Below are positions 49,779-62,986 of a stretch of DNA of 64,000 nucleotides, one piece after another. The stretch comes from Aurantibacillus circumpalustris. Its GTDB lineage: Bacteria > Bacteroidota > Bacteroidia > B-17B0 > Aurantibacillaceae. The notes under the pieces were generated by a model. The model was not told where the DNA came from, made no database searches, and worked only from the letters and a program-made list of their open reading frames with translations. The position numbers were made by a program, and so were the translations under genes. The stretch lies in the NCBI RefSeq assembly GCF_029625215.1, contig NZ_CP121197.1, positions 4,092,001 through 4,156,000 on the forward strand. The letters are read 5' to 3'. Within the stretch, counting starts at the first letter, position 1. The number at the start of each line of letters is the position of its first letter.

Positions 49779-50270
49779 CTACCCCTTAACAACATAGTAT
49801 TTAAAACTTGTAGTTCGCAAGCTGTAAAGGGTGTAGTCATTACTAGTTTCTTTCTTATTATTAGAATTTCCATCTGAATGACTCAATTGTCCTTTACCTT
49901 TATATACAAAATTATCGATCCTTAATTCCCATTTTGAAATTTCCTTGAATATGGAATAGAGTTCATCTACCATGTTTTTTTCAGGATGTTTTTTTAGATC
50001 TTCAAGAAGTTTATTGATTGAAAAATTAATTGTATCCTTTTTAACAATAAATTTTAAAGCTTCAATATTGTGGTACTCCACTTCTTCTGGAAGACTAATT
50101 GCTTTTTCCTTCAGTATTGAATAATATCTACCGTTGGCTTTTACAAAGGCGTAAACCGGTACTTCTGTTTTACTTACTTCTTTTGTATTCACATAAACTT
50201 TTAGGAGCGGGTTTTGCGCAACAATAGAATTTGCTATGATTAAAAGACTTATAATTGTTATTCTTATCAT
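49779..50270 (-). CDS. Small secreted protein, unknown function
   Basis: 163 residues with a signal peptide (IRITIISLLIIANSIVAQ). The rest is a mixed alpha/beta chain (KVYVNTKEVSKTEVPVYAFV, KLLEDLKKHPEKNMVDELYS) and a short Ser/Asn linker (SHSDGNSNNKKE). I do not recognise a family. It follows another secreted unknown protein with a 19-base gap, so the two are likely cotranscribed. Confidence 0.6.
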   Translation of the reverse strand: MIRITIISLLIIANSIVAQNPLLKVYVNTKEVSKTEVPVYAFVKANGRYYSILKEKAISLPEEVEYHNIEALKFIVKKDTINFSINKLLEDLKKHPEKNMVDELYSIFKEISKWELRIDNFVYKGKGQLSHSDGNSNNKKETSNDYTLYSLRTTSFKYYVVKG

Positions 50271-50289: not shown

Positions 50290-50775
50290 TTAATCATTAA
50301 CTAAAGAAGAAAAAATACCTAAGGCACAACCTTCTTCACCATCTAAAAAACTAAACGAAAGGCAATAATTTCCAGTTGTTTTGCATTCGAATTCCAATTC
50401 ATTGTAGAATTTTTTAAATGTGGAATTATATGTTGACCCTAACATAAATTCCTGCTTTTCGTTGTTATAAATAGTCAGTATTGGTTGTCCTTCATAATCT
50501 TTGTTTCTAACTGCAAAAAACTTATACCGAACACCCCTATTTAAAGTGATTACTTGTTTTTTATATTCAATTGAAGCGCTTCCCTTTTTTTTCTTCATGT
50601 AAAAAGGAAATTCTTGCAAAAGAGTAAATTTTTTTAACTGGTCTACTGCTAAGGCCGTCATTTGTGAATTACTGCAATCGCCCTTTTTTAAACTATAAAA
50701 AGCTGAGCAAGTTATGAATACACAGAGCAAAGTGCAGACAAAGACAAGACTTTTGGATCTTATTACTAATTTCAT
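50290..50775 (-). CDS. Small secreted or membrane-anchored protein, unknown function
   Basis: 161 residues. A hydrophobic N-terminus (LVFVCTLLCVFITCSAFYSL) suggests export, and a cysteine follows in TCSAF. The remainder is beta-rich (ITLNRGVRYKFFAVRNKDYE, FECKTTGNYCLSFSFLDGEE) with a possible disulfide pair. No family is recognised. It stands between a lipoprotein gene and another secreted unknown in the same direction. Confidence 0.6.
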   Translation of the reverse strand: MKLVIRSKSLVFVCTLLCVFITCSAFYSLKKGDCSNSQMTALAVDQLKKFTLLQEFPFYMKKKKGSASIEYKKQVITLNRGVRYKFFAVRNKDYEGQPILTIYNNEKQEFMLGSTYNSTFKKFYNELEFECKTTGNYCLSFSFLDGEEGCALGIFSSLVND

Positions 50776-50819: not shown

Positions 50820-51725
50820 TTATTTATAAACTATGAAAATTGAATTTCTTAATTTTGTTATTTCTTTATCAATGGCGTCCATATCAGCTTTTGTCATTTC
50901 AATTACCGATTCAGAACCGTCTTCAATAACTAATTCGCCATTTACTTCTTTTGTAATTGGTTCCTTATAAACATAAGATATTTTCACGTTAGCATAAACG
51001 TCTTTTAACCCCTTTAATTTTTCTTTCAGTTCACGGTAATAAGCTACTTTATCAATTTTATTAAGAATGGCATAAATGTTATTGATAATTATTTTTTGTT
51101 CACCTATTCTTTTTGTAATCTCAGGTGAAGGATTGTGACGTGCAATGTTGTTAAACATGTGAAGTCCCTCTACCCAAGAGCCGACAAGAATAAGTACACT
51201 AAGATCACCTCTTTCTTTACTTCTCAAATACTCGTCAATGTGATTGAAATTTTCGGTAGAAATTCGAATTAATGAATCTACATTATTTCTGTTTTTAGCA
51301 AGGTTATTCAATGTTGAGAAATCAAGAAACTGATTCACTTTTAATTCTTTGGAAATAGTATTCACGCTCTCCAAATACTCCACCACATAAAGCATTTTAT
51401 TATTAAGGTTAATATAACCCAAATCCACACCGTAACCTCCCAAAGCCAATGCTTGAGCATATTTATTAGGAAAGTTTACAGCATTTTGTGCAGGAATTAA
51501 TAATGTTTTATCAAAACTGCTTTTCGCTTGCGTGATTAAATTAGCAGTCTCAATTGGTGATGGCAATGTCTGCATCATTTCATCCAAAACGTCTCTTGAT
51601 ATAGAAACATTTTGAGTATTTTCAATAGGCTGATTCATTAACGCAGCTTCCAGATCTGCTTTGTTAGAATCGCCACAACTCATAAGTATAACAGCAGATA
51701 ATAGGATTGTAATTGTTTTTTTCAT
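50820..51725 (-). CDS. Helical lipoprotein, unknown function
   Basis: 301 residues. The signal ends in LMSCGDSN, a lipobox with Cys17. The mature part is almost all helix (ETANLITQAKSSFDKTLLI, YAQALALGGYGVDLGYINL, EGLHMFNNIARHNPSPEITK). I have no family name for it. It lies 150 bases downstream of the Sia-type transporter operon on the same strand and heads the group of small secreted genes, so it could be a periplasmic partner of the transporter, but a separate promoter is possible. Confidence 0.65.
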   Translation of the reverse strand: MKKTITILLSAVILMSCGDSNKADLEAALMNQPIENTQNVSISRDVLDEMMQTLPSPIETANLITQAKSSFDKTLLIPAQNAVNFPNKYAQALALGGYGVDLGYINLNNKMLYVVEYLESVNTISKELKVNQFLDFSTLNNLAKNRNNVDSLIRISTENFNHIDEYLRSKERGDLSVLILVGSWVEGLHMFNNIARHNPSPEITKRIGEQKIIINNIYAILNKIDKVAYYRELKEKLKGLKDVYANVKISYVYKEPITKEVNGELVIEDGSESVIEMTKADMDAIDKEITKLRNSIFIVYK

Positions 51726-51875: not shown

Positions 51876-54800
51876 TTAGTTTAGTTTATTAAAAATCCGT
51901 TTGAATACGTCAAAATAGAGGATTAGGAATAAAAGGACATTTATAAACCAAATAACAAAAAGGTTAAAGTAATAGGTTGGTACCAAAGAGTTAAACAAAT
52001 ATTTAGATGCTGAAAGGAAATGTGTCTTAGTACCAACAAATGTGTTCTCAGAGCTTGGTTCTTGAAAAATCGGATCAACTATTTGCACAAGGGAGTTGTT
52101 TTCAATAACAATTTTTTCTTTCTCCAAACTCCCTGTAACTATCTCATCCAAACTATTATTAAAATACTTCAATTTTAATTTTTCGAACTCCGATTCGCCT
52201 CCTAATTCAGCAATTTGTTTAGCATTTGCTATCTCCTTAATTTCAGACGCATGATTGAACATTTCACTGTAGAACACATTTAAAGCCTGCAAATAATTTA
52301 ATACTGACTCGTTATTGATAAAATCGGGAAGTTTGTTTTTATAACCGAGTTTCGATGATTCAACTAAATCCTTCTCTAATTCAGATTTAATAAGTTGAGT
52401 CCGTTGATCAAAATTTTCTTTTAATTCCTTACTTCTTTCCTTTACAATCTCTTCTAATTTTGGTATTAAATAAACCAATTTGTAATTAAACTTACTTTCT
52501 AATTTGGAATAGATAAATCTTTCCTTATTGTAAGGTGTATTAACATACATATCTACCGCCAACGCCTCATACGCCCACCTCGATACCATTACGTTTGCAA
52601 TTCCTGGAACTTTATGTCCTCCACCAAAAAGACTGCTCAATTTGGAGTAACTAAACATAGCACCTCCTAAAATTAATTGAGGAATAATGATTAGAGGAAT
52701 AATGATATAAATTGTAACTGGACTATTAAAAGTTGAAGAGAGAATGAGACCAAGTATGTTTGAAAAACAAAAAACAGAAAACAGAACAAAGAAAAAACTA
52801 AAATAGTTTACATAGATCTGTAGAATCACATTACCAATTATAACAAACAAAATAGACTGTATAGCTGAAATAGCAAATAATAATATTACTTTGGATGAGA
52901 GGTACGAAAGTCTGCTTAAGTGCAAAAACTTTTCACGTTTAAGTATTTTCTGATCTTTGTATATTTCTTCTGCACTAATTGTTAATCCCACTAAAAGCGC
53001 AACAATAATAGACATGAAAAAATAAGACGGGATATTGGTATTATGAAAATACGTGTAACCCTCAGATTTGGTTTTATCAATAAAACGAATGATTAAGCTT
53101 AAAAACATAACCAAAACGGGCACTTCAATTAAATTAATTAAGATGTATTGTTTGTTTGATAGCTTCGAAAATAAGTCGCGGAGAAAAAAATACTTAGTTT
53201 GAACAAAACGATTCGGAACACTAAATGTGCTTTGTAGTTTTGTTAACACCGGTTTTACCTCTATTTTACTTAAAAATTTCTCTTTGTAATATTCGTAAAA
53301 CTTTAGTGGCTCTATCTTTCTCTTGGCAGTATAATTACCATATTCATCAATTTCCTTTAGTTCAATTAAATTAAAAATCGTTTCAGGATTCACACTTCCA
53401 CAAGCGTAACACTCCCCTACTTCACTATTGATTTGGTTGGTCACCTTTTTAAAATACATAACACCCTCAATCGGATTTCCGTAATATGAAGGGTATCCGC
53501 CAGTGTCTAGTATTAATATTTTATCAAACATTTTAAAAATATCTGATGAAGGCTGATGAATTACAACAAAAATCAGTTTACCTCTGAACGTAAGTTCTTT
53601 CAATAAGTCCATTACATTCTCTGAATCTCTTGATGATAAACCTGAAGTAGGCTCATCTAAGAATAATACATGAGGCTCACGAATAAGTTCTAAGGCAATG
53701 TTCAAACGCTTACGTTGACCACCACTGATCTTTTTATTAAGCGGGCTCCCAACTTTAATGCCTTTAATTTCTTCTAGGCCCAATGAGATAAGCGTCTTAC
53801 TTATTTTTTGATTAAGTTCTTCTTCATTTAAATCCTTAAAACATAATTTAGCGTTATAAAATAAATTTTCATAAACCGTTAAATCCTCAATTAACAAATC
53901 GTCTTGAGGAACAAAACCAATAGCACCTTTTAAATCATTAGATCCAGAATTTAAATCAACCCCATTGATTTCTATTTTACCATTCGAAGGCTTGTCTTGA
54001 CCCGAAAGCAATGTTAACAAAGTAGTCTTACCTGAACCACTCGCTCCCATTATACCAACTAAATTGGCAGATGTTTCGGCAATCTTTAGTTCATTTAGAG
54101 CTTTTTTTCCATTTGGAAATTTATGCTCGATAATATGTGCATCGAATGAAAAAGCTTCACCTGAAAGGTCTTCGGTAAATTTTGAAATTATATTTGAGTA
54201 ATAGATCGTTGTTTGTGGCAAACGTAATGTACTACCATGAGGAAATAAATAAATATTTTCCGGTTTAATAACAACACCATTTAAAAACAACTCTACATTA
54301 CCATGGTATTTTAAAATAACAATGTTAATGCTTTGAATATAAATAAACTTACAATTACCACTGTAATTTTGAAAAGGAAGATAGTGCTTACAATTACAGC
54401 TATTTTTGAATTCTTCTTCTCCAATAACAATTTCATTTTCGTTAGTTTCATCTTTAGGTTCAAATACAAAATTTTTAATGTCCAGAAATTCCTGTTTTTC
54501 AATTTTAAAAACATCTGCCACAGTTTCAACTATCTGAACTCTATTTGTTGATTTTTGTGAGTCGTTTTTAAAGAACTCCAATAAACGTATGAGTACAATT
54601 GTTTTTTGTTTTTGTGCTAAAGTCTTGTTGATTTTTTTACAAATAGCCAGTGTACGCACTGAATCCTTCATAGAAGTACGTGCTTTATCTTTAGCATCAG
54701 CACTTGGAGATTCTGTTTTAACGTCACCTAAAAAATCATTGTACAACACCATGTATTCGCTAACACGGTCGATACTTAGTTGTGAAGACAAAAAGTCACC

Positions 54801-54893
54801 CACAAATTTTTCATGATCATCCAATAAAACACCGTCTTGCTTAGCGATGATGGCAAATAATTGCATCAACGCTTTTAAAATTTCTTCGCTCAT
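51876..54893 (-). CDS. ABCG-type transporter with N-terminal TerB-like domain
   Basis: 1005 residues. Residues 1-145 are helical and TerB-like (EEILKALMQLFAIIAKQDGV, ...KIEKQEFLDIKNFV). Residues about 155-270 form a small beta domain (NIVILKYHGNVELFLNGVVI) with a cysteine pair in CNC. The ABC domain has Walker A GASGSGKTT at 283-291, signature ISGGQRKR at 389-396, Walker B VLFLDEP at 409-415 and His446. A CYACG motif lies near 494-498. The second half has about six membrane helices in ABC2 style, so one polypeptide carries a half-transporter of ABCG (White) order. It overlaps the SiaC-fusion stop by four bases, so it is translated with the Sia switch genes. Confidence 0.9.
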   Translation of the reverse strand: MSEEILKALMQLFAIIAKQDGVLLDDHEKFVGDFLSSQLSIDRVSEYMVLYNDFLGDVKTESPSADAKDKARTSMKDSVRTLAICKKINKTLAQKQKTIVLIRLLEFFKNDSQKSTNRVQIVETVADVFKIEKQEFLDIKNFVFEPKDETNENEIVIGEEEFKNSCNCKHYLPFQNYSGNCKFIYIQSINIVILKYHGNVELFLNGVVIKPENIYLFPHGSTLRLPQTTIYYSNIISKFTEDLSGEAFSFDAHIIEHKFPNGKKALNELKIAETSANLVGIMGASGSGKTTLLTLLSGQDKPSNGKIEINGVDLNSGSNDLKGAIGFVPQDDLLIEDLTVYENLFYNAKLCFKDLNEEELNQKISKTLISLGLEEIKGIKVGSPLNKKISGGQRKRLNIALELIREPHVLFLDEPTSGLSSRDSENVMDLLKELTFRGKLIFVVIHQPSSDIFKMFDKILILDTGGYPSYYGNPIEGVMYFKKVTNQINSEVGECYACGSVNPETIFNLIELKEIDEYGNYTAKRKIEPLKFYEYYKEKFLSKIEVKPVLTKLQSTFSVPNRFVQTKYFFLRDLFSKLSNKQYILINLIEVPVLVMFLSLIIRFIDKTKSEGYTYFHNTNIPSYFFMSIIVALLVGLTISAEEIYKDQKILKREKFLHLSRLSYLSSKVILLFAISAIQSILFVIIGNVILQIYVNYFSFFFVLFSVFCFSNILGLILSSTFNSPVTIYIIIPLIIIPQLILGGAMFSYSKLSSLFGGGHKVPGIANVMVSRWAYEALAVDMYVNTPYNKERFIYSKLESKFNYKLVYLIPKLEEIVKERSKELKENFDQRTQLIKSELEKDLVESSKLGYKNKLPDFINNESVLNYLQALNVFYSEMFNHASEIKEIANAKQIAELGGESEFEKLKLKYFNNSLDEIVTGSLEKEKIVIENNSLVQIVDPIFQEPSSENTFVGTKTHFLSASKYLFNSLVPTYYFNLFVIWFINVLLFLILYFDVFKRIFNKLN

Positions 54894-55963
54894 ACCAACT
54901 CTTCTACCCCATCAGAAATTATACAATATTCAAATCCTTTTTTGTAGATACCACCCAAATGCTCACCAAATTCGCGCATATCCGTATCTTCAGGGTCAAA
55001 ATACCAAAAGATTTTAGGGCCCTTCCCTTCTTTTGCCATTGCGTCGCATTTACGACATAATTGAACTAAAAACTTGGAAGTGTAGGTATTAAAATAATCC
55101 AAAATAATATAGATCTCCAGAGGCTTATCTCCCAGCTTTCTATGATTATCAAACCACTCAAGTATTGGTGTGAAAAAATTTGTTGGAGAAAAAGGTGAAG
55201 AAGATCCACTTATAATAACTTTACCATCTATTGGATCTAAAACAATTTTCGGCGTATTTGCAGTCGCGGCTAACTCAAAGTACTGATAAGGTTGATGACT
55301 TCTAACTGAATTGACTACTTCATCAAATGTATTATATCCGAAGTCATCCATAAAATAATTGCTTGCGTGAATTATATTTAATTCCATATTTAAAGTTTCT
55401 TCGATAAAATGATAAGGGTTTTTACATTTAACAAATGTTTTAGATAGGAATAAATCGAAATTTTTGAAATATTTTAAATAAACTACTTCATTGTTTCTGT
55501 TTGCCGCATACATAACATTCGCTCCCAAATATTTGGTCGAATTTGTTTTTCTATTATTTGTAAAATAAACTGCATTCTTTTTATCTGTAAATGCTTCCTG
55601 GTTCAGAAAAAACTCAGTCAGTTGGATTCTATCCTCACTATCAATGATAAGTGCGGTTTGTAAAGCATCGATTTTTTTCTCAAACTCAGCGTCCATTTTT
55701 CCAAAACAATCATTAAAATATTGATGAAAAAGTAATGTGAAAATATAAAACCCTGAAATCGGATTATTAGTTTCAACATCATTTATATTTACTGTTTTTC
55801 CGTTTGAATGTTTGCCGGAAAGAACAGAGATAATTTGCATTATCTCTTTATTATTTATAAATGTTTTTCCTAGGAAAAGTTCACCACTATTAGAAACACT
55901 CCTTTCGGGTCTGCGCAGATCGCCAACAAAGGCTGAAACGTTGGTGCGAATTTGAGTTTTCAT
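54890..55963 (-). CDS. SiaC-family domain fused to an unknown N-terminal domain
   Basis: 357 residues from the ATG at 55963; a TTG at 55972 is also possible. Residues 1-230 are of unknown family. The C-terminal 120 residues match SiaC/DUF1987 (TPKIVLDPIDGKVIISGSSS, NFFTPILEWFDNHRKLGDKP, LDYFNTYTSKFLVQL). The Thr in YFNTYT (about residue 293) aligns with the phosphorylated Thr68 of SiaC. It starts two bases after the SiaC stop and overlaps the transporter start, so it is a natural candidate for the piece linking the phosphorylation switch to the transporter. Confidence 0.85.
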   Translation of the reverse strand: MKTQIRTNVSAFVGDLRRPERSVSNSGELFLGKTFINNKEIMQIISVLSGKHSNGKTVNINDVETNNPISGFYIFTLLFHQYFNDCFGKMDAEFEKKIDALQTALIIDSEDRIQLTEFFLNQEAFTDKKNAVYFTNNRKTNSTKYLGANVMYAANRNNEVVYLKYFKNFDLFLSKTFVKCKNPYHFIEETLNMELNIIHASNYFMDDFGYNTFDEVVNSVRSHQPYQYFELAATANTPKIVLDPIDGKVIISGSSSPFSPTNFFTPILEWFDNHRKLGDKPLEIYIILDYFNTYTSKFLVQLCRKCDAMAKEGKGPKIFWYFDPEDTDMREFGEHLGGIYKKGFEYCIISDGVEELV

Positions 55964-55965
55964 TT

Positions 55966-56343
55966 TTAACAAGCAATTAAATTGAATGGAATCTCAACTA
56001 ATTCTTTGTACTCTTCTCCTGCTTCCAACATGTCGTCATCTGATTCAAAATAATACCATTCGATATTAATTTGAGAATTTTTAGACTCCATCATGTCTTC
56101 TAGTTTCATAAGAATATCTAAAATAATTTTTGAAGACGCAGTATTAAAATATTCCAATTTAAATTTAAAGCTTGTTGTTGGTGTTGTTTCTTCCGAAAAG
56201 GCTTCTAGCCATTCAAAAACTGGTTTGTAGAAAGTGGTTACGTCCTCTGGTAAAGAGCGTCCTGAGATTATAAATTCATTAGTTTCTCCATTAAAAGTGA
56301 TTTCCGGAGTGTCTTCTGTTGCTGTAATGTTAAGTAATTGCAT
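55966..56343 (-). CDS. SiaC family regulatory phosphoprotein
   Basis: 125 residues, the full length of SiaC (DUF1987). TPEITFNGETNEFIISGRSL, VFEWLEAFSEE and LEYFNTASSKIILDIL are its conserved segments, and the threonine that is phosphorylated in Pseudomonas SiaC falls exactly at Thr68. In that system SiaB phosphorylates and SiaA dephosphorylates SiaC, and free SiaC activates a diguanylate cyclase. No cyclase is found here. It lies directly between SiaB-family genes and a second SiaC-domain gene. Confidence 0.9.
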   Translation of the reverse strand: MQLLNITATEDTPEITFNGETNEFIISGRSLPEDVTTFYKPVFEWLEAFSEETTPTTSFKFKLEYFNTASSKIILDILMKLEDMMESKNSQINIEWYYFESDDDMLEAGEEYKELVEIPFNLIAC

Positions 56344-56375
56344 GATAAATTGTTTTACGGGGTTTTAAATTATTT

Positions 56376-56918
56376 TTAGTTGTTACTGATTTTGCTGTGT
56401 AGAATAAAAAAAGAAAGGTTTGCATCTGATACATAAAATTTATAGTCAAGTCTGTTTCCAGATTTTCTCACCATGTCTATAAATCCAAGACCGGCACCGC
56501 CAACTTCACTAATTATACTGTTTAAACGGGCCGTCTTGTAATGTTCTTTTAATTCTTCTTTATTAAGTGTATTTATAAAGTCTATTTTATCTTTTACGAC
56601 GGAAATTTTTTCGTTACGGATAAAATTACCTGTTACTACATTATAGGAAGTCTCATCTTTTCCAATCATTAAAAATGGATTTTGATTGTTTTCTGAACTT
56701 ACCATTTGATGCTTACTGATGTTTTGCAAACCTTCAACCATAACGTTGAATAACTTACGGCGCAATCCTTCTTCTATATTTTCTTGAATGAGTTTTTTCT
56801 CTGTCATAGAAATTACCGATTTAATCATTGCTTGATCAAAAAGTCCCTGATAAATAAGAATAATCTTATTCTCAGACATGGTTTTGTAGATATCGTATAT
56901 ATTAATTGTAGATTCCAT
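56376..56918 (-). CDS. SiaB family protein kinase, intact ATP-binding motifs
   Basis: 180 residues of the SiaB/DUF6272 family. The histidine-kinase-like ATPase motifs are visible: N-box-like MVEGLQNISKHQ and glycine box EVGGAGLGFIDMVRKSG. It should phosphorylate SiaC on threonine. Its start overlaps the upstream paralogue by 17 bases. Compared with that paralogue it keeps the full glycine box, so it is the likely active kinase of the pair. Confidence 0.87.
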   Translation of the reverse strand: MESTINIYDIYKTMSENKIILIYQGLFDQAMIKSVISMTEKKLIQENIEEGLRRKLFNVMVEGLQNISKHQMVSSENNQNPFLMIGKDETSYNVVTGNFIRNEKISVVKDKIDFINTLNKEELKEHYKTARLNSIISEVGGAGLGFIDMVRKSGNRLDYKFYVSDANLSFFILHSKISNN

Positions 56919-57462
56919 CAGTAAGTTTTAAATTGGATATGGTTGTTTTGAATGATAAAAATGTGCTGTGCTCATCAATCTGAATTAATTCATAATTGAT
57001 TTTTTCTTTTGTTTTCTTCGAAATATCAAGTAAACTCATTAGTAATGGATTTTGATTTACCAATTCTTTGGTAACTAATTCGCTATAAAACTTGGTTTTT
57101 ACTTCTTCTGTTTCAAGGCTATTCACAATGTTTAATAACTCTTGTATTTTAGAAGTTTCAGAAGATTTCATGGAAGTTCCAAGATGCACGGTATATTGAT
57201 CGTTGTTCTTACCAATCAAAAAGATGTTATCACCTGCAAGATCATTACTTTGTTCAATACGCGATAAATTTTGCGCGCATTCAATCATAAAATGAAAAAT
57301 CTTTTTCTTAATACTTCCATCAATCTCCAAACTGGAAAGCTTTTTATCGGTAATGTTTAAAAGCGAAAGCAATAAGCTTTGATTAAAACTTCCCATAATC
57401 GACATCACAAACTGTTGTGATACCATTCTATCGTAAATGTTTTTTGTTAAATCTATATTCAT
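56902..57462 (-). CDS. SiaB family paralogue lacking the glycine box (possible pseudokinase)
   Basis: 186 residues, same fold and length as the next gene (FNQSLLLSLLNITDKKLSSL; N-box region MIECAQNLSRIEQ). Where the intact copy has EVGGAGLGFIDM, this one reads VNQNPLLMSLLDISKKTKEK, without the GxGxG residues needed to hold ATP. The N-box asparagine remains. It may be an inactive partner or a regulator of the kinase. Spacing to the phosphatase gene is two bases. Confidence 0.82.
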   Translation of the reverse strand: MNIDLTKNIYDRMVSQQFVMSIMGSFNQSLLLSLLNITDKKLSSLEIDGSIKKKIFHFMIECAQNLSRIEQSNDLAGDNIFLIGKNNDQYTVHLGTSMKSSETSKIQELLNIVNSLETEEVKTKFYSELVTKELVNQNPLLMSLLDISKKTKEKINYELIQIDEHSTFLSFKTTISNLKLTDGIYN

Positions 57463-57464
57463 TG

Positions 57465-58451
57465 TTAAAAATTTAGTCCCATAATTAAAATGTCATCAAC
57501 TTGTTTATTGGTGCCCTTCCACTCGTTGAGATAAGTATATAAGGTTGATTTAAAATCTTGCATCGACAGGCTTGCATTTTGCTCCATAAATGTTTTTAAA
57601 TTGCGTGTCATTAGTTTCCTTTTTTCTGGACCTCCAGTTTGATCAGGTAATCCATCTGTAAATAAAAATATGGAATCACCTTTTTGGTAAGTAATCGTAT
57701 GATCGGTAAAAGAGTTTAAGCCTTTATAATGCATTCCACCAATAGGAAATTTATCCCCACCAATTACTTCAACACTTCCATTTCTTAAAAAGAAAAGCGG
57801 ACGGTGAGCCCCACTAAAAGTAACTTCACCTTTTTTCTTGTCAATGCAACAAAGCCCAATGTCCATGCCATCGTTAGAATTTCCGTCAGAAGAATCTTGT
57901 TTTAATGTTTTTACAACCGATTCGTGTAAACGTCTTAGTATTACTGATGGTTTTAATAGTTTACCGTCATTCGTAATATCATTTAATAATAAATTACCAA
58001 TCATCGACATCATTGCACCTGGAACTCCATGCCCTGTGCAATCAACTGCTGCCAAATACAAAAAGTCGCCTGTTTCATATAACCATGGGAAATCTCCGCT
58101 AATCACATCTTTAGGAAGGTAAAGAATGAAGCTATTTGGATTATATGTTAACAGATCCTGTTCTGTAGGGTTAATTGCTAATTGAATTTTGCGTGAATAA
58201 TTAATACTTTCTGTAATACGTTTATTTTGACTTTCTACAATTTGTCTTGTATTATTTAACTCGCCTAAGGTTTCAGTGAGCTTTTTTTTCATTTCTCTTT
58301 CACGCCAAGTAGCTGAAATCAAATGATTGTTAGTTTCTTCTAGTTCAGTAAAATATAATTTTAGACCGTTTAATTCGGTTTTTAAGCTCTCATTCTCTTT
58401 TTGGAGCAAATTGAACTGATCTGAGGGTATTTCTTGTATTTCCTTTTCCAT
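57465..58451 (-). CDS. SiaA-like SpoIIE/PP2C phosphatase, cytoplasmic
   Basis: 328 residues. An N-terminal coiled coil (about 15-90) contains no membrane segment. The SpoIIE domain follows: SINYSRKIQLAINPTEQDLL, KDVISGDFPWLYETGDFLYL, AAVDCTGHGVPGAMMSMIG, NDGMDIGLCCID, IFLFTDGLPDQTGG. All metal-binding aspartates are present. In Pseudomonas, SiaA is membrane-bound with a sensor domain; this version lacks it, so its input must come from elsewhere, perhaps from the divergent hybrid kinase. It is the first gene of the operon. Confidence 0.9.
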   Translation of the reverse strand: MEKEIQEIPSDQFNLLQKENESLKTELNGLKLYFTELEETNNHLISATWREREMKKKLTETLGELNNTRQIVESQNKRITESINYSRKIQLAINPTEQDLLTYNPNSFILYLPKDVISGDFPWLYETGDFLYLAAVDCTGHGVPGAMMSMIGNLLLNDITNDGKLLKPSVILRRLHESVVKTLKQDSSDGNSNDGMDIGLCCIDKKKGEVTFSGAHRPLFFLRNGSVEVIGGDKFPIGGMHYKGLNSFTDHTITYQKGDSIFLFTDGLPDQTGGPEKRKLMTRNLKTFMEQNASLSMQDFKSTLYTYLNEWKGTNKQVDDILIMGLNF

Positions 58452-58630: not shown

Positions 58631-61600
58631 ATGCCCTCACCGAGCAAACTGAAAGAAAAACAGACACTCTTATTTGAGATTACATCAAAGTACATTGATT
58701 CGCACTTTGATGAAATCCCCTTGCAAAGCATGTGCGATGACATGCATAAACTTTCTGACGCATCCTATGCAATTTTAAATCTCATCTCTCCTTCGGAAAC
58801 AAGTATCAAAACGCTTGCTATTTCTGGAATTAAAAAGAACATAAAAAAAGTAATAGACCATTTAGGTTTAAATTTAATTGGAAAGGAGTGGGATCTTCCA
58901 CCAATTGAACTTGAGAAAATGAAGAATACCACCATTGTAAAGCTTGGTGAGTTAGAAGACACAAATACCTTTTTTAAGAAAAAATTTACCTCTCTTTTCA
59001 AGCACGCATTAAACATTGGTGATGTTTACCGAATTGGACTAAAAAACCAAGATAAAGTAATAGGCACTGTAGCTCTTATTATGGAGCGAAACGCTCAAGT
59101 TGAATACACTGAAATTATTGAACTGTATGCCAAACTACTAGGCAGTGTAATTTTCAGGATGGAAAAAGAAAAAGAACTAAACGAAGAAAAACTTAAACTC
59201 AAAATCGTTTCCGAAAACTCACCAAATCTTTTGCAACTTGTAACGAGAGACAGAAAAATACAATTCGTTAACAAAACAAACTTGTATAAAATTACCGATG
59301 TAGTTGGTAAGGATATTCTTGATTTTGTTCCAAGCACCTATCAAGTTAATTTTAAAAAATTATTATCCGAAGCATTTGAAAGCAAAAAAATCGTCAAAGG
59401 AAAAATGGTTGCCTGGGGAAAAGATAATCCAGAAACTCATTACGATCTGCAATTTATACCCTTAATTGTAAACAATGAGGTGACTTCTGTTTATATAATT
59501 TCGACTGATATTACCGAAAATGAAAATTTAATAGCTGAATTAAGCAATCAAAAAAACATCTTTGAACAGGCTGGCCATCTTACTAAATTTGGAAGTTGGG
59601 AGTTAGATTTAGAAACCAACACAATTATCACTAGTGAGGCGCTTGCTGATATCTACGGTATTAAAAGAGGTCGGAAATCTTCCTTTGAAGAAATTTTCGC
59701 CACCTTTTTAGCAGAAGACCGTGAAATTCTTACCAACAAAATGCTAAATGCCATTGATCTCGGTGAAGGTTTTTCTTACCAAGCCTTGCAAAATACCTAC
59801 GATGGAAAGCAAAAATGGCTCAGTCACACATCTAAACCAAAATACGAAAACAATAAAATTGTGGGTCTTTATGGCACCACGCAAGATATCACGGAATTTA
59901 AAATATTAACGGATGCACAAATTGTAACTAGCAATCAACTTTCGCAATTTCAATTTGCACTTAACGAAGCCAGTATTATCTCTAAGACAGATGAAAATGA
60001 AGTAATCACCTTTGTAAACCGAAATTTTGAAACTATTAGCGGATTTACTTCTGATGAAATGATTGGAAAAACCCATCAACTAATTAATGCTAACTATCAC
60101 CCTGACTCATTTTGGAATGACCGCTATAATATTATCACGAAAGGCAAAGTTTGGCGTAGTGAAATAAAGAACAGAGCAAAGGATGGTAGCTATTTTTGGA
60201 CCGATACATTTGTAATTCCAATAAAAAATCCAGTCGGAGTAGTTGTTGAATATTTATTTATTCGTAATAATATCACCGAAAAAAAACAAAACGAATTTGA
60301 ATTAACTCTTATTAAGAACCGATTAGACAATGTTCTTACTTCTATTGATGATGCTATCTGGTCCATTAGTTTATCTCAATCAGAAATGCTGTATTTAAAT
60401 TCAGCAGGTGAAAAACTTTTCGGATATACTTTAAAAGAATTTAACACCAATAAAACTTTATGGCAAGATCTCTATCAGCCAGAAGACATTCAGCTAAGAT
60501 ATCTAAAACGCGCAGAGTTATTTGACAAGGGTTATTGCGAGTTTGAACAGAATTCAAGATTAGCAGATGGTAGGGATATTTTTTCTTACGTAAGGGTTTG
60601 GTTAATACGTGATAACAAAGGGAATCCTTCGAGAATAAATGGCGTTACTTCTGATATTACTGCGCGCAAAATGGCAGAAAGAGAATTAGAGAAAAACAAT
60701 CGGCTCTATGAAAAATTAATTTATCAAATACCTGGACTCATTTTTCAGTTTCGAATGAAACCAGACGGTAGCTCCAATTTTATGTATTTAAGCCAAAAGT
60801 TTAAAACACTTCTTGGAATCGAAACGGATGGTCTTTTAGAAAATGCAGCAGAAGCATGGAGCAAAGTTCACAAGGATGATTATCAGAATATGCTACAAAG
60901 TTTTCAAGAATCTGCGCAAACACTTCAAAATTTAAATATTGAATTTAGAATTAACCATCCCGATCACCTAGTTCCTGTTTGGAGAGGAATTCAGGCTACT
61001 CCAGAACTACAATCTGATAATTCAATAATTTGGTACGGCTACATTTCGAGCATCGAATCTCAAAAAAATTATGAACTTAAATTATTAACAGCACAGAAAG
61101 AAGCTAAACACTCCAATGATTTTACCAAAAAAATAATACGGCAAATACCTGGAACCGTTTTTCAACTAAAAATTTCGAAAGAAGGCGACAGTGAATTTCT
61201 ATTCTTAAGTGATTTGATAATGCCTTCATCTGAAAATCATTTCAGTGAAATGCCGCATCTAAGCAATATTTTTGATTTAATTCATCCTGAGGATAGAAAC
61301 AGTCTGCTAATCATACTTGATAAATCAACACGCAATCTAATTCCTATTAATATGGAAATGCGTATGAAAACAAGATTCAGTGAAGAATACTCATGGAAAT
61401 TACTTCAAGCAAGTCCTGAAAAAGACAATGAGGAGAATATCATTTTCTACGGTTATCTTGGCGAAATTGAAGAGATGAAGAAAGCTCAGTTAAAAACGAT
61501 AGAAGCCAAAGAAGAAGCTGAGAGAGCCAACAAAGCCAAAACAGAATTTTTGGCAAACATGAGTCACGAAATACGTACACCAATGAATGCTGTACTTGGA

Positions 61601-62986
61601 TTCTCTGAACTTTTAAAGGGCAATACCATTGGTCCAAAATACGAAGGCTATCTTGATGGTATTTTATCAGGCGGTAAAAATTTGCTTTCACTCATTGATG
61701 ATATTTTAGACCTCTCCAAAATTGAGGCGGGTCAAATGAGCATTCAAAATGTTTTGGTAAATCTTGAAAAGCTTTGTGAAGAATTCAGACAGTTATTTAA
61801 TCAAAAAGCTAAAGAAAAAAACATTGCATTTATTATTGATATTGAGAAAGATTTACCAAAAAACATTCTAATAGACGAAACACGCATTCGCCAAATTCTA
61901 TTTAATTTGGTTGGTAACGCCTTTAAATTCACACATTCGGGCTCTGTAAGACTTTCTATTTTCATGCAAGAAAATGCATTAAATTCTTTATCACATTCCA
62001 TTACCTTTAAAGTTACCGATACGGGTATTGGAATTCCAGAAAGTCAACACCAACTAATTTTTGACTCTTTTAAACAGCAAGATGGACAAAGCAATCGCAA
62101 ATATGGTGGAACAGGTTTAGGTTTATCAATTACTAAAAGATTAGTAGATATGATGGACGGAACCATACATTTAGAGAGTAGTCCTGGCCAAGGTGCTTCT
62201 TTTTCAGTAACTATTCATAATCTAGAAGTAGATTTTGCTGATGAGAAGCAACAAATTGCAGAGCCAGCTCCATCTTTTCTTTATCGCTTCAATGGTCAAA
62301 AAATACTTTTGGTTGAAGATGTAGAATCTAATAGAGAAATAATAAAAGGTTTTTTAGAGCCTTTAAATCTTGAGATAAATTTTGTTGAAAATGGACAAGA
62401 TGCCATAAATAGCTTAAAGAAAAGTCAACCAGACTTAATCCTCATGGATATGATGATGCCAATTATGGACGGCTACACGGCGGTGAAAGTAATACGTGGC
62501 AATTCCCAGTATGATAAAATTCCAATCATTGCAATTACCGCTTCTGCCTTAAAACAAAGTGAACTTGAAATTAGAGAATTATGCAACGATTACTTAAGAA
62601 AGCCCATAAATAAAAATGATTTACTTTTAGTTTTAAGTAATTATTTAGCACACAAAGTTTATAAAGATAAAGCAGATTCACAGTCAAATTTTTCGTCCTC
62701 AAAATTTGATACTTCATCTTTTTCAAAAGAATTTAGAAAAGGACTGAGCTTGAATTTTTCAGACTCATGGCAGAAAGTTTCAACACTCATGAGTATTGAT
62801 GACATAATTAAATTTGCCAACCAACTAAATATATATGCAGGTAACCATCAAAATAAAGATCTTATAAACTATTGTGAGATCCTTCTTGTCTACGCAGAAA
62901 ACTTCGATATTGACAAAATGAATGCGCAATTTTTCGATTTCGGAAGATTTCTAAATGAAACAGCTGATAATATAGATTCGCATTAG
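58631..62986 (+). CDS. Very large multi-PAS hybrid histidine kinase
   Basis: 1451 residues, soluble. It has an N-terminal GAF-like region (about 1-190). About five or six PAS domains follow (for example [60 protein letters not shown]), each with a PAC-type tail. His[21 protein letters not shown] has His979, then HATPase [38 protein letters not shown] receiver follows, [14 protein letters not shown] with phospho-acceptor Asp1273 in [16 protein letters not shown], then a C-terminal helical tail of unknown type. It senses several unknown signals. Divergence from the Sia-type operon suggests it may tune that switch. Confidence 0.92.

Follow-up and report, generated by a model that had tools for sequence, protein, structure and literature searches.

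What does a Sia-type phosphorylation switch control when its genes are packed together with that of a transporter? The genome of Aurantibacillus circumpalustris raises this question in a stretch of 64,000 nucleotides (contig NZ_CP121197.1, positions 4,092,001 to 4,156,000), which we call the window and in which all coordinates below are counted. Six minus strand genes at 51876–58451 follow each other closely, overlapping by 17 bases at one extreme and lying 32 bases apart at the other. Their open reading frames and family matches agree with the initial annotation, which had described a phosphatase, two SiaB-family proteins, SiaC, a SiaC fusion and a TerB-ABCG transporter. We think it probable, short of confident, that these genes form a partner-switch of the SiaABC type that acts on an ABCG-type transporter in place of the diguanylate cyclase SiaD, most likely through binding of unphosphorylated SiaC to the N-terminus of the transporter. 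The basis consists of gene identities, conserved linkage, co-occurrence, swapped outputs and natural fusions of a TerB/FHA-like region to SiaC; binding, the direction of the switch, the role of the fusion and the cargo are the parts that we infer.

The first gene (57465..58451, minus strand, as are all features of the locus described below) encodes a SiaA-type PP2C/SpoIIE phosphatase of 328 amino acids, in which a probable coiled coil precedes the PP2C domain. It matches the SpoIIE/PP2C family (7e-21) and, among solved structures, the PP2C domain of SiaA (6k4e, E 1.3e-30, residues 51–328), and its score of 161 bits is far below the cut-off of 700 for the NCBIfam SiaA equivalog. NCBIfam indicated the same families for the operon proteins in general, yet none exceeded an equivalog cut-off. 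The description of the phosphatase needs one correction, as no hydrophobic 19-mer was found in the window protein. Such a segment is present in 61 of the 67 SiaA-type proteins of operon loci, the window's own being counted in the 67. Flux-sensing ATP-binding cassette (ABC) transporters report to a kinase, and on this model the transporter might be the input of the switch, sensing an envelope condition and steering SiaA or SiaB while SiaC acts elsewhere. The segment is missing from the window phosphatase and from five more of the 67, so a membrane input may be lacking there, with the caveat that L171 and L179, which are among the five, may be pieces of split genes. Against such a role stand the 61 proteins with a hydrophobic segment of their own, the fusion of a transporter-type N-terminus to SiaC and not to SiaA or SiaB, and the position of the transporter, which takes the place after SiaC that a GGDEF gene has in two loci of other classes (L232, L235; both described below). 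We therefore regard the transporter as an unlikely input. Three proteins match both the SiaA and SiaB profiles and are phosphatase-kinase fusions (L145:11655-14837, L238:8219-9940 and L247:10162-12039).

SiaB1 (56902..57462) and SiaB2 (56376..56918) match DUF6272 at 5.7e-22 and 1.1e-35, respectively. Their annotation as SiaB-family proteins stands as to family membership; as to kinase motifs, N-box and glycine-rich box are intact in SiaB2, and the glycine-rich box is gone in SiaB1, which has NPLLMS at the position of GAGLG in SiaB2 and retains the N-box Asn. Only SiaB2 passes the NCBIfam SiaB subfamily cut-off of 85 (136.8, versus 76.2 for SiaB1). SiaB2, the only SiaB compared with solved structures, matched SiaB itself (6kko_A, E 1.3e-7). 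The glycine-rich box is also gone in the SiaB1 counterparts of G021, L151 and L224. A strict motif was matched by 93 of 103 SiaB domains, and five of the other 10 are true losses: SiaB1, its three counterparts and the second SiaB of L148. Judged by these motifs, SiaB1 is probably a pseudo-kinase. Fused double SiaB proteins occur as well (L095, L098, L144 and L152 among others), and those whose motifs were compared keep both glycine-rich boxes.

The SiaC phosphoprotein (55966..56343) matches its family at 3.2e-41 and the solved structure of SiaC (6kko_C) at E 1.1e-12. Its Thr68, encoded at 56140-56142, aligns with Thr68 of Pseudomonas aeruginosa SiaC, which the relevant passages of two reports give as the phosphorylated site (PMC7647112, PMC8457831). 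Across 107 SiaC domains residue 68 is Thr in 99, Ser in 7 and Asn in 1. The next gene, the SiaC fusion (54890..55972, 360 amino acids), starts with TTG and has ATG as its fourth codon; its SiaC domain (4.7e-25) spans approximately residues 229–351, and the equivalent of Thr68 is Thr296. The window genome also contains a separate SiaA-SiaB-SiaC set (L141:3978-8982), and the 20 kb fetched around it hold no TerB-ABCG gene; the next gene downstream of that set resembles, by a reading of its sequence, a fructose-bisphosphate aldolase.

The transporter (51876..54893, 1005 amino acids) is a half-transporter in a single chain, with ABC_tran at residues 275–417 (1.6e-29) followed by ABC2_membrane at 565–756 (4.5e-18); against TIGR00955 it scored 222.5 bits, under the cut-off of that model. 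In an AlphaFold2 model of residues 1–242 (mean predicted local distance difference test, pLDDT, 85.3), seven helices are followed by a beta region and then by a short helix at the end. The initial annotation had proposed a TerB-like and a beta domain here, and the first was confirmed at the level of the family. The helical domain (residues 1–144; 54462..54893) of the window protein alone matches Pfam TerB weakly (15.6 bits, cut-off 24.4), and TerB was found at E<=1 in 52 of 53 aligned N-termini, the best at 4.8e-12; structure matches to this part include 2h5n (Z 8.4) and the tellurite-resistance protein 2ou3 (Z 7.3). For the beta domain (residues ~150–241; 54171..54446), the top Foldseek match was the FHA domain of MEK1 (probability 1.00, E 0.028), with nothing below 0.001, and FHA domains filled most of 50 VIA rows at Z 6.6–8.2, including FHA-2 of Rv1747 at Z 6.9. 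Because Z values of this order may arise by chance, we name the domain FHA-like. FHA is absent from the 25 Pfam families listed. A viral structure library gave no match below E 0.001.

An FHA fold brings to mind the FHA-ABCG transporter Rv1747, to which phosphothreonine recruits Rv2623 according to parts of PMC5549992. By this precedent, SiaC phosphorylated on Thr68 could dock on the FHA-like domain, phosphorylation recruiting SiaC and not releasing it, and the Foldseek and VIA matches agree with such a docking site. The same source describes, in its passages on FHA I of Rv1747, Gly, Arg, Ser, His and Asn as pocket residues for phosphothreonine. In a reading of the sequence columns of the 53 aligned N-termini, residues of this pocket are not conserved; a later Asn-Gly pair is. 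In addition, Thr68 of P. aeruginosa SiaC is placed at the start of a helix and not in a loop peptide in a passage of PMC7647112. The beta domain is FHA-like in fold and without the usual phosphothreonine pocket, and because the pocket residues are not conserved, we retain a phosphothreonine receptor as a rival only, and a very unlikely one.

Scanning GTDB contigs for a single peptide pattern gave at least 536 confirmed relatives of the N-terminus, of which the best 80 were kept. Both SiaB and SiaC lie beside the transporter in 68 of these 80 loci, SiaB only in 1, SiaC only in 1 and neither in 10, with the contig ending within 250 bases upstream of the transporter in three of the ten. The usual order is SiaA (~870 amino acids), SiaB, SiaC, transporter, and SiaC and the transporter stand tail to tail in six further loci. 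A midpoint-rooted transporter tree of 125 tips consists of two clades, of 88 tips (the window inside) and 37 tips. In the larger clade SiaC is directly upstream on the same strand in 74 (72 by script, together with the window and G021, assigned by hand for a 4-base overlap between SiaC and transporter), further off and divergent in 4, and missing from the stretch examined in 10. In the smaller clade no SiaC was found in the stretch examined in 30, and it is convergent in 6 and divergent in 1. The link to the transporter is thus conserved, with SiaC directly upstream in 74/88 tips of the window's clade and linkage in 68/80 of the closest GTDB loci.

Presence across genomes follows the same pattern. 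In a sample of 41 relatives, the window genome included, SiaC was found in 35 genomes, and these 35 also have the transporter and SiaB; the six left over have none of the three genes, and one of them is only 73% complete. Among 395 genomes of the window's class, 190 have SiaC and the transporter, 23 SiaC only, 9 the transporter only and 173 neither. Eleven of the 23 SiaC-only genomes are under 85% complete. In a phylum sample of 345 genomes, from which four weak transporter matches (<30 bits) were dropped, SiaC is present in all five genomes with a full-length transporter, and the 15 other SiaC genomes all belong to other classes. Switch and transporter might nevertheless be co-transcribed as one regulon without contact, the target of SiaC being another protein. 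Non-adjacent SiaBC pairs and transporter copies, which are common in the genus, and the 23 class genomes with SiaC and no transporter fit such an arrangement; the TerB/FHA-like–SiaC fusions do not, nor does the matching presence and absence over the 41 relatives, which holds even where the genes are not neighbours. We consider co-transcription without contact quite unlikely, and the wiring of the Sia switch to the transporter well supported.

The initial annotation reported no GGDEF gene in the window, and none was found in its relatives: a Pfam search for GGDEF gave a match in 0/41 genomes, the window genome included, and a control search was positive in 8 of 14 genomes. Within what the Pfam model can detect, this rules out for the window genome the classical Sia route, in which SiaC would act on an unlinked diguanylate cyclase; no point was found in its favour, and we give it next to no credence. 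In 18 further SiaC-positive genomes of the phylum sample, GGDEF was detected in 14 of the 15 from other classes (in several by a single weak match) and in none of the three from the window's class. To see the outputs of other classes, 17 regions were fetched and ten genes downstream of SiaC were scanned; two regions (L231, L240) had no SiaC frame after the overlap filter. The gene after SiaC encodes a GGDEF enzyme in L232 and L235, a histidine kinase in L233, L234 and L250, and a class III cyclase in L245. A multi-AAA+ protein follows SiaC in L238, L248 and L249, each with a frame of 77–85 amino acids between, and a glycosidase, probably a mere neighbour, follows it in L242. The histidine kinases, the class III cyclase and the AAA+ proteins are candidates for further outputs of the switch. 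Because other classes have different genes after SiaC, the Sia switch looks like a plug-in with changeable targets, of which TerB-ABCG would be that of the window's class.

Two natural fusions join the N-terminal region of the transporter type to SiaC. In L151 (Bacteroidetes bacterium RIFCSPLOWO2_12_FULL_35_15), a fusion gene of 367 amino acids between SiaC and the transporter scores 28.3 bits against a TerB/FHA-like profile and 133.8 bits against SiaC. The second is located in the window genome, ~36 kb beyond the operon (L140:6915-8039, 374 amino acids); its TerB/FHA-like part scores 26.3 bits with HMMER filters off and is not listed under default filters, and no other Sia gene was found by profile in the 20 kb fetched around it. 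The SiaC fusion of the window occupies the same position as that of L151. We take this joining to be the best sequence evidence that SiaC and the transporter N-terminus may act together. A TerB protein of 262 amino acids beside SiaC genes in L149 was also considered; it has, by a reading of its sequence, a DnaJ-like C-terminal end and was taken as an unrelated TerB protein.

The operon does not end at the transporter, as had been assumed, and the conserved unit continues downstream to 50290. It includes D301 (50820..51725), a lipoprotein and conserved partner of the transporter, and D161 (50290..50775), a small partner protein; neither has a credible match in Pfam or PDB. A lipobox-like motif is present in 82 of 105 members of the D301 family, and 92 of 102 members of the D161 family have an N-terminal hydrophobic stretch. 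When only transporters flanked by 2.5 kb or more on each side are counted, D301 lies within 2.5 kb on the same strand in 65/69 of the window clade and 21/28 of the other clade, and D161 in 63/69 and 20/28, respectively. D301-type proteins are present in 36 of the 41 relatives. All five genomes that have none also lack the transporter, and the sixth genome lacking it (G004, incomplete) has three D301-type genes. Because there are up to eight copies per genome, and five in the window genome, the D301 family probably serves other systems too. Directly after D161 is a gene of 163 amino acids (49779-50270), for which the fetched loci hold no relative except its own copy. On the other side of the operon, 58631-62986, whose transcription runs in the direction leading away from it, encodes a hybrid histidine kinase of 1451 amino acids that contains a receiver domain and many PAS domains. 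Counts of promoter and terminator sites were not above those of shuffled sequences, and a Bacteroidetes-type promoter pattern had no match at the operon and was not enriched in the window.

In the proposed mechanism, SiaB2 would phosphorylate SiaC on Thr68 and the SiaA-like phosphatase would strip the phosphate, two steps extrapolated from their P. aeruginosa counterparts. The transporter would be bound, at its cytosolic TerB/FHA-like N-terminus, by one of the two forms of SiaC, most likely, as in that species, by the unphosphorylated one. This binding would alter the ATPase or dimer state of the transporter, and export across the inner membrane could so be turned on or off with no second messenger involved. 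The SiaC fusion may serve as a tethered or competing SiaC, and the lipoprotein D301 and the small exported D161 may be envelope partners of the transporter. Passages of PMC8457831 describe that in P. aeruginosa unphosphorylated SiaC contacts the helical stalk of SiaD and that phosphorylation disrupts this contact; owing to this parallel, we propose that SiaC would act on the helical TerB part.

Direct gating by SiaC, through a predicted contact with the N-terminal domains, is likely. Several points weigh against the control of the transporter by SiaC. The six-gene order was found in only one (G021) of 24 same-genus relatives, and most of them have SiaC and the transporter at separate places. 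A single transporter copy is present in 16 of these relatives, in 15 cases without SiaC in the stretch fetched, some on short contigs. The best 80 GTDB loci were selected for similarity to the window's transporter, a choice biased towards the operon clade. In the class sample, Fisher's p of 6e-73 ignores relatedness, and the thresholds were unequal (1e-10 for the transporter, 1e-3 for SiaC). One gene occurs without the other in 32 of the 395 genomes, all 9 transporter-only genomes are at least 97% complete, and the transporter match is weaker than 1e-25 in 13 of the 190 genomes with both, 12 of these from one family. The second SiaC of G021 (149 amino acids) is unfused. The N-terminus of the window fusion scores only 5.3 bits against the TerB/FHA-like profile, and the model of this protein is poor at the N-terminus (whole-model mean pLDDT 59.4). 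The model does not establish a TerB/FHA-like N-terminus, as confidence there is low and the secondary structure is only compatible; hhalign against the N-terminus of the second fusion gave nothing. VIA rows for the model were filled by its SiaC domain (an MlaFB chain at Z 7.3; SpoIIAA, RsbV and RsbS rows at Z 6.6–7.2). There is a faint indication that the N-terminal 228 residues of the window fusion are a degenerate TerB/FHA-like region.

A broader reading is that SiaABC is a general threonine-phosphorylation plug-in whose outputs are swapped by lineage. In the window's class the plug-in would then control a TerB/FHA-like ABCG exporter that has two new envelope partners and whose own N-terminal module was copied onto SiaC as a pre-tethered regulator; we judge the chances of this being right or wrong to be even. 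The occurrence of the Sia switch and an unusual transporter in one cluster across many Bacteroidota suggests that the switch was re-plugged to control membrane transport. Each part is known; it is their wiring that appears new. Sections of PMC8457831 describe SiaC-type (DUF1987) proteins as widespread and suggest that they modulate adjacent proteins. Titles and abstracts of the open-licence PMC literature gave no link of SiaC to a transporter in Bacteroidota, the one paper that contains the words being on Neisseria (PMC7643975), and no other named target of SiaC-type proteins was found in that literature. The switch would prove modular if it has a conserved target in genomes in which no GGDEF gene can be detected. 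If the proposal is true, these bacteria would control export through threonine phosphorylation, and two unannotated envelope families would gain a function.

The closest known system is SiaABCD of P. aeruginosa, with which the window shares a PP2C phosphatase, a SiaB-type kinase, a STAS-like SiaC with Thr68, the gene order and an output gene immediately after SiaC. The output here is a TerB/FHA-like ABCG transporter, whereas there it is a GGDEF enzyme; the window phosphatase has no membrane part, and the window adds a SiaB without glycine-rich box, a SiaC fusion and two envelope partners. Rv1747/PknF of Mycobacterium tuberculosis combines an ABC exporter, N-terminal domains of the FHA fold (FHA-like in the window transporter) and Ser/Thr phosphorylation in the same operon, as outlined in parts of PMC3908365. 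FHA I of Rv1747 has a full pocket and binds phosphothreonine in the passages that describe it (PMC5549992), unlike the domain here, where the pocket residues are not conserved. TerB is an addition here, and kinase and phosphatase are of the SiaB and SiaA kinds. A precedent for control by a STAS fold is MlaFB of Escherichia coli, in which the STAS protein MlaB acts with the ABC ATPase MlaF and whose chain was matched by the SiaC domain of the fusion (Z 7.3); MlaB is not known to belong to a kinase-phosphatase switch, nor MlaFB to have a TerB or FHA part. The stressosome and the SpoIIAA/RsbV partner switches follow the logic of a SpoIIE-type phosphatase, a GHKL kinase and a STAS-fold phosphoprotein. 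Their output is a sigma factor or a second messenger, whereas the output proposed here is a membrane transporter.

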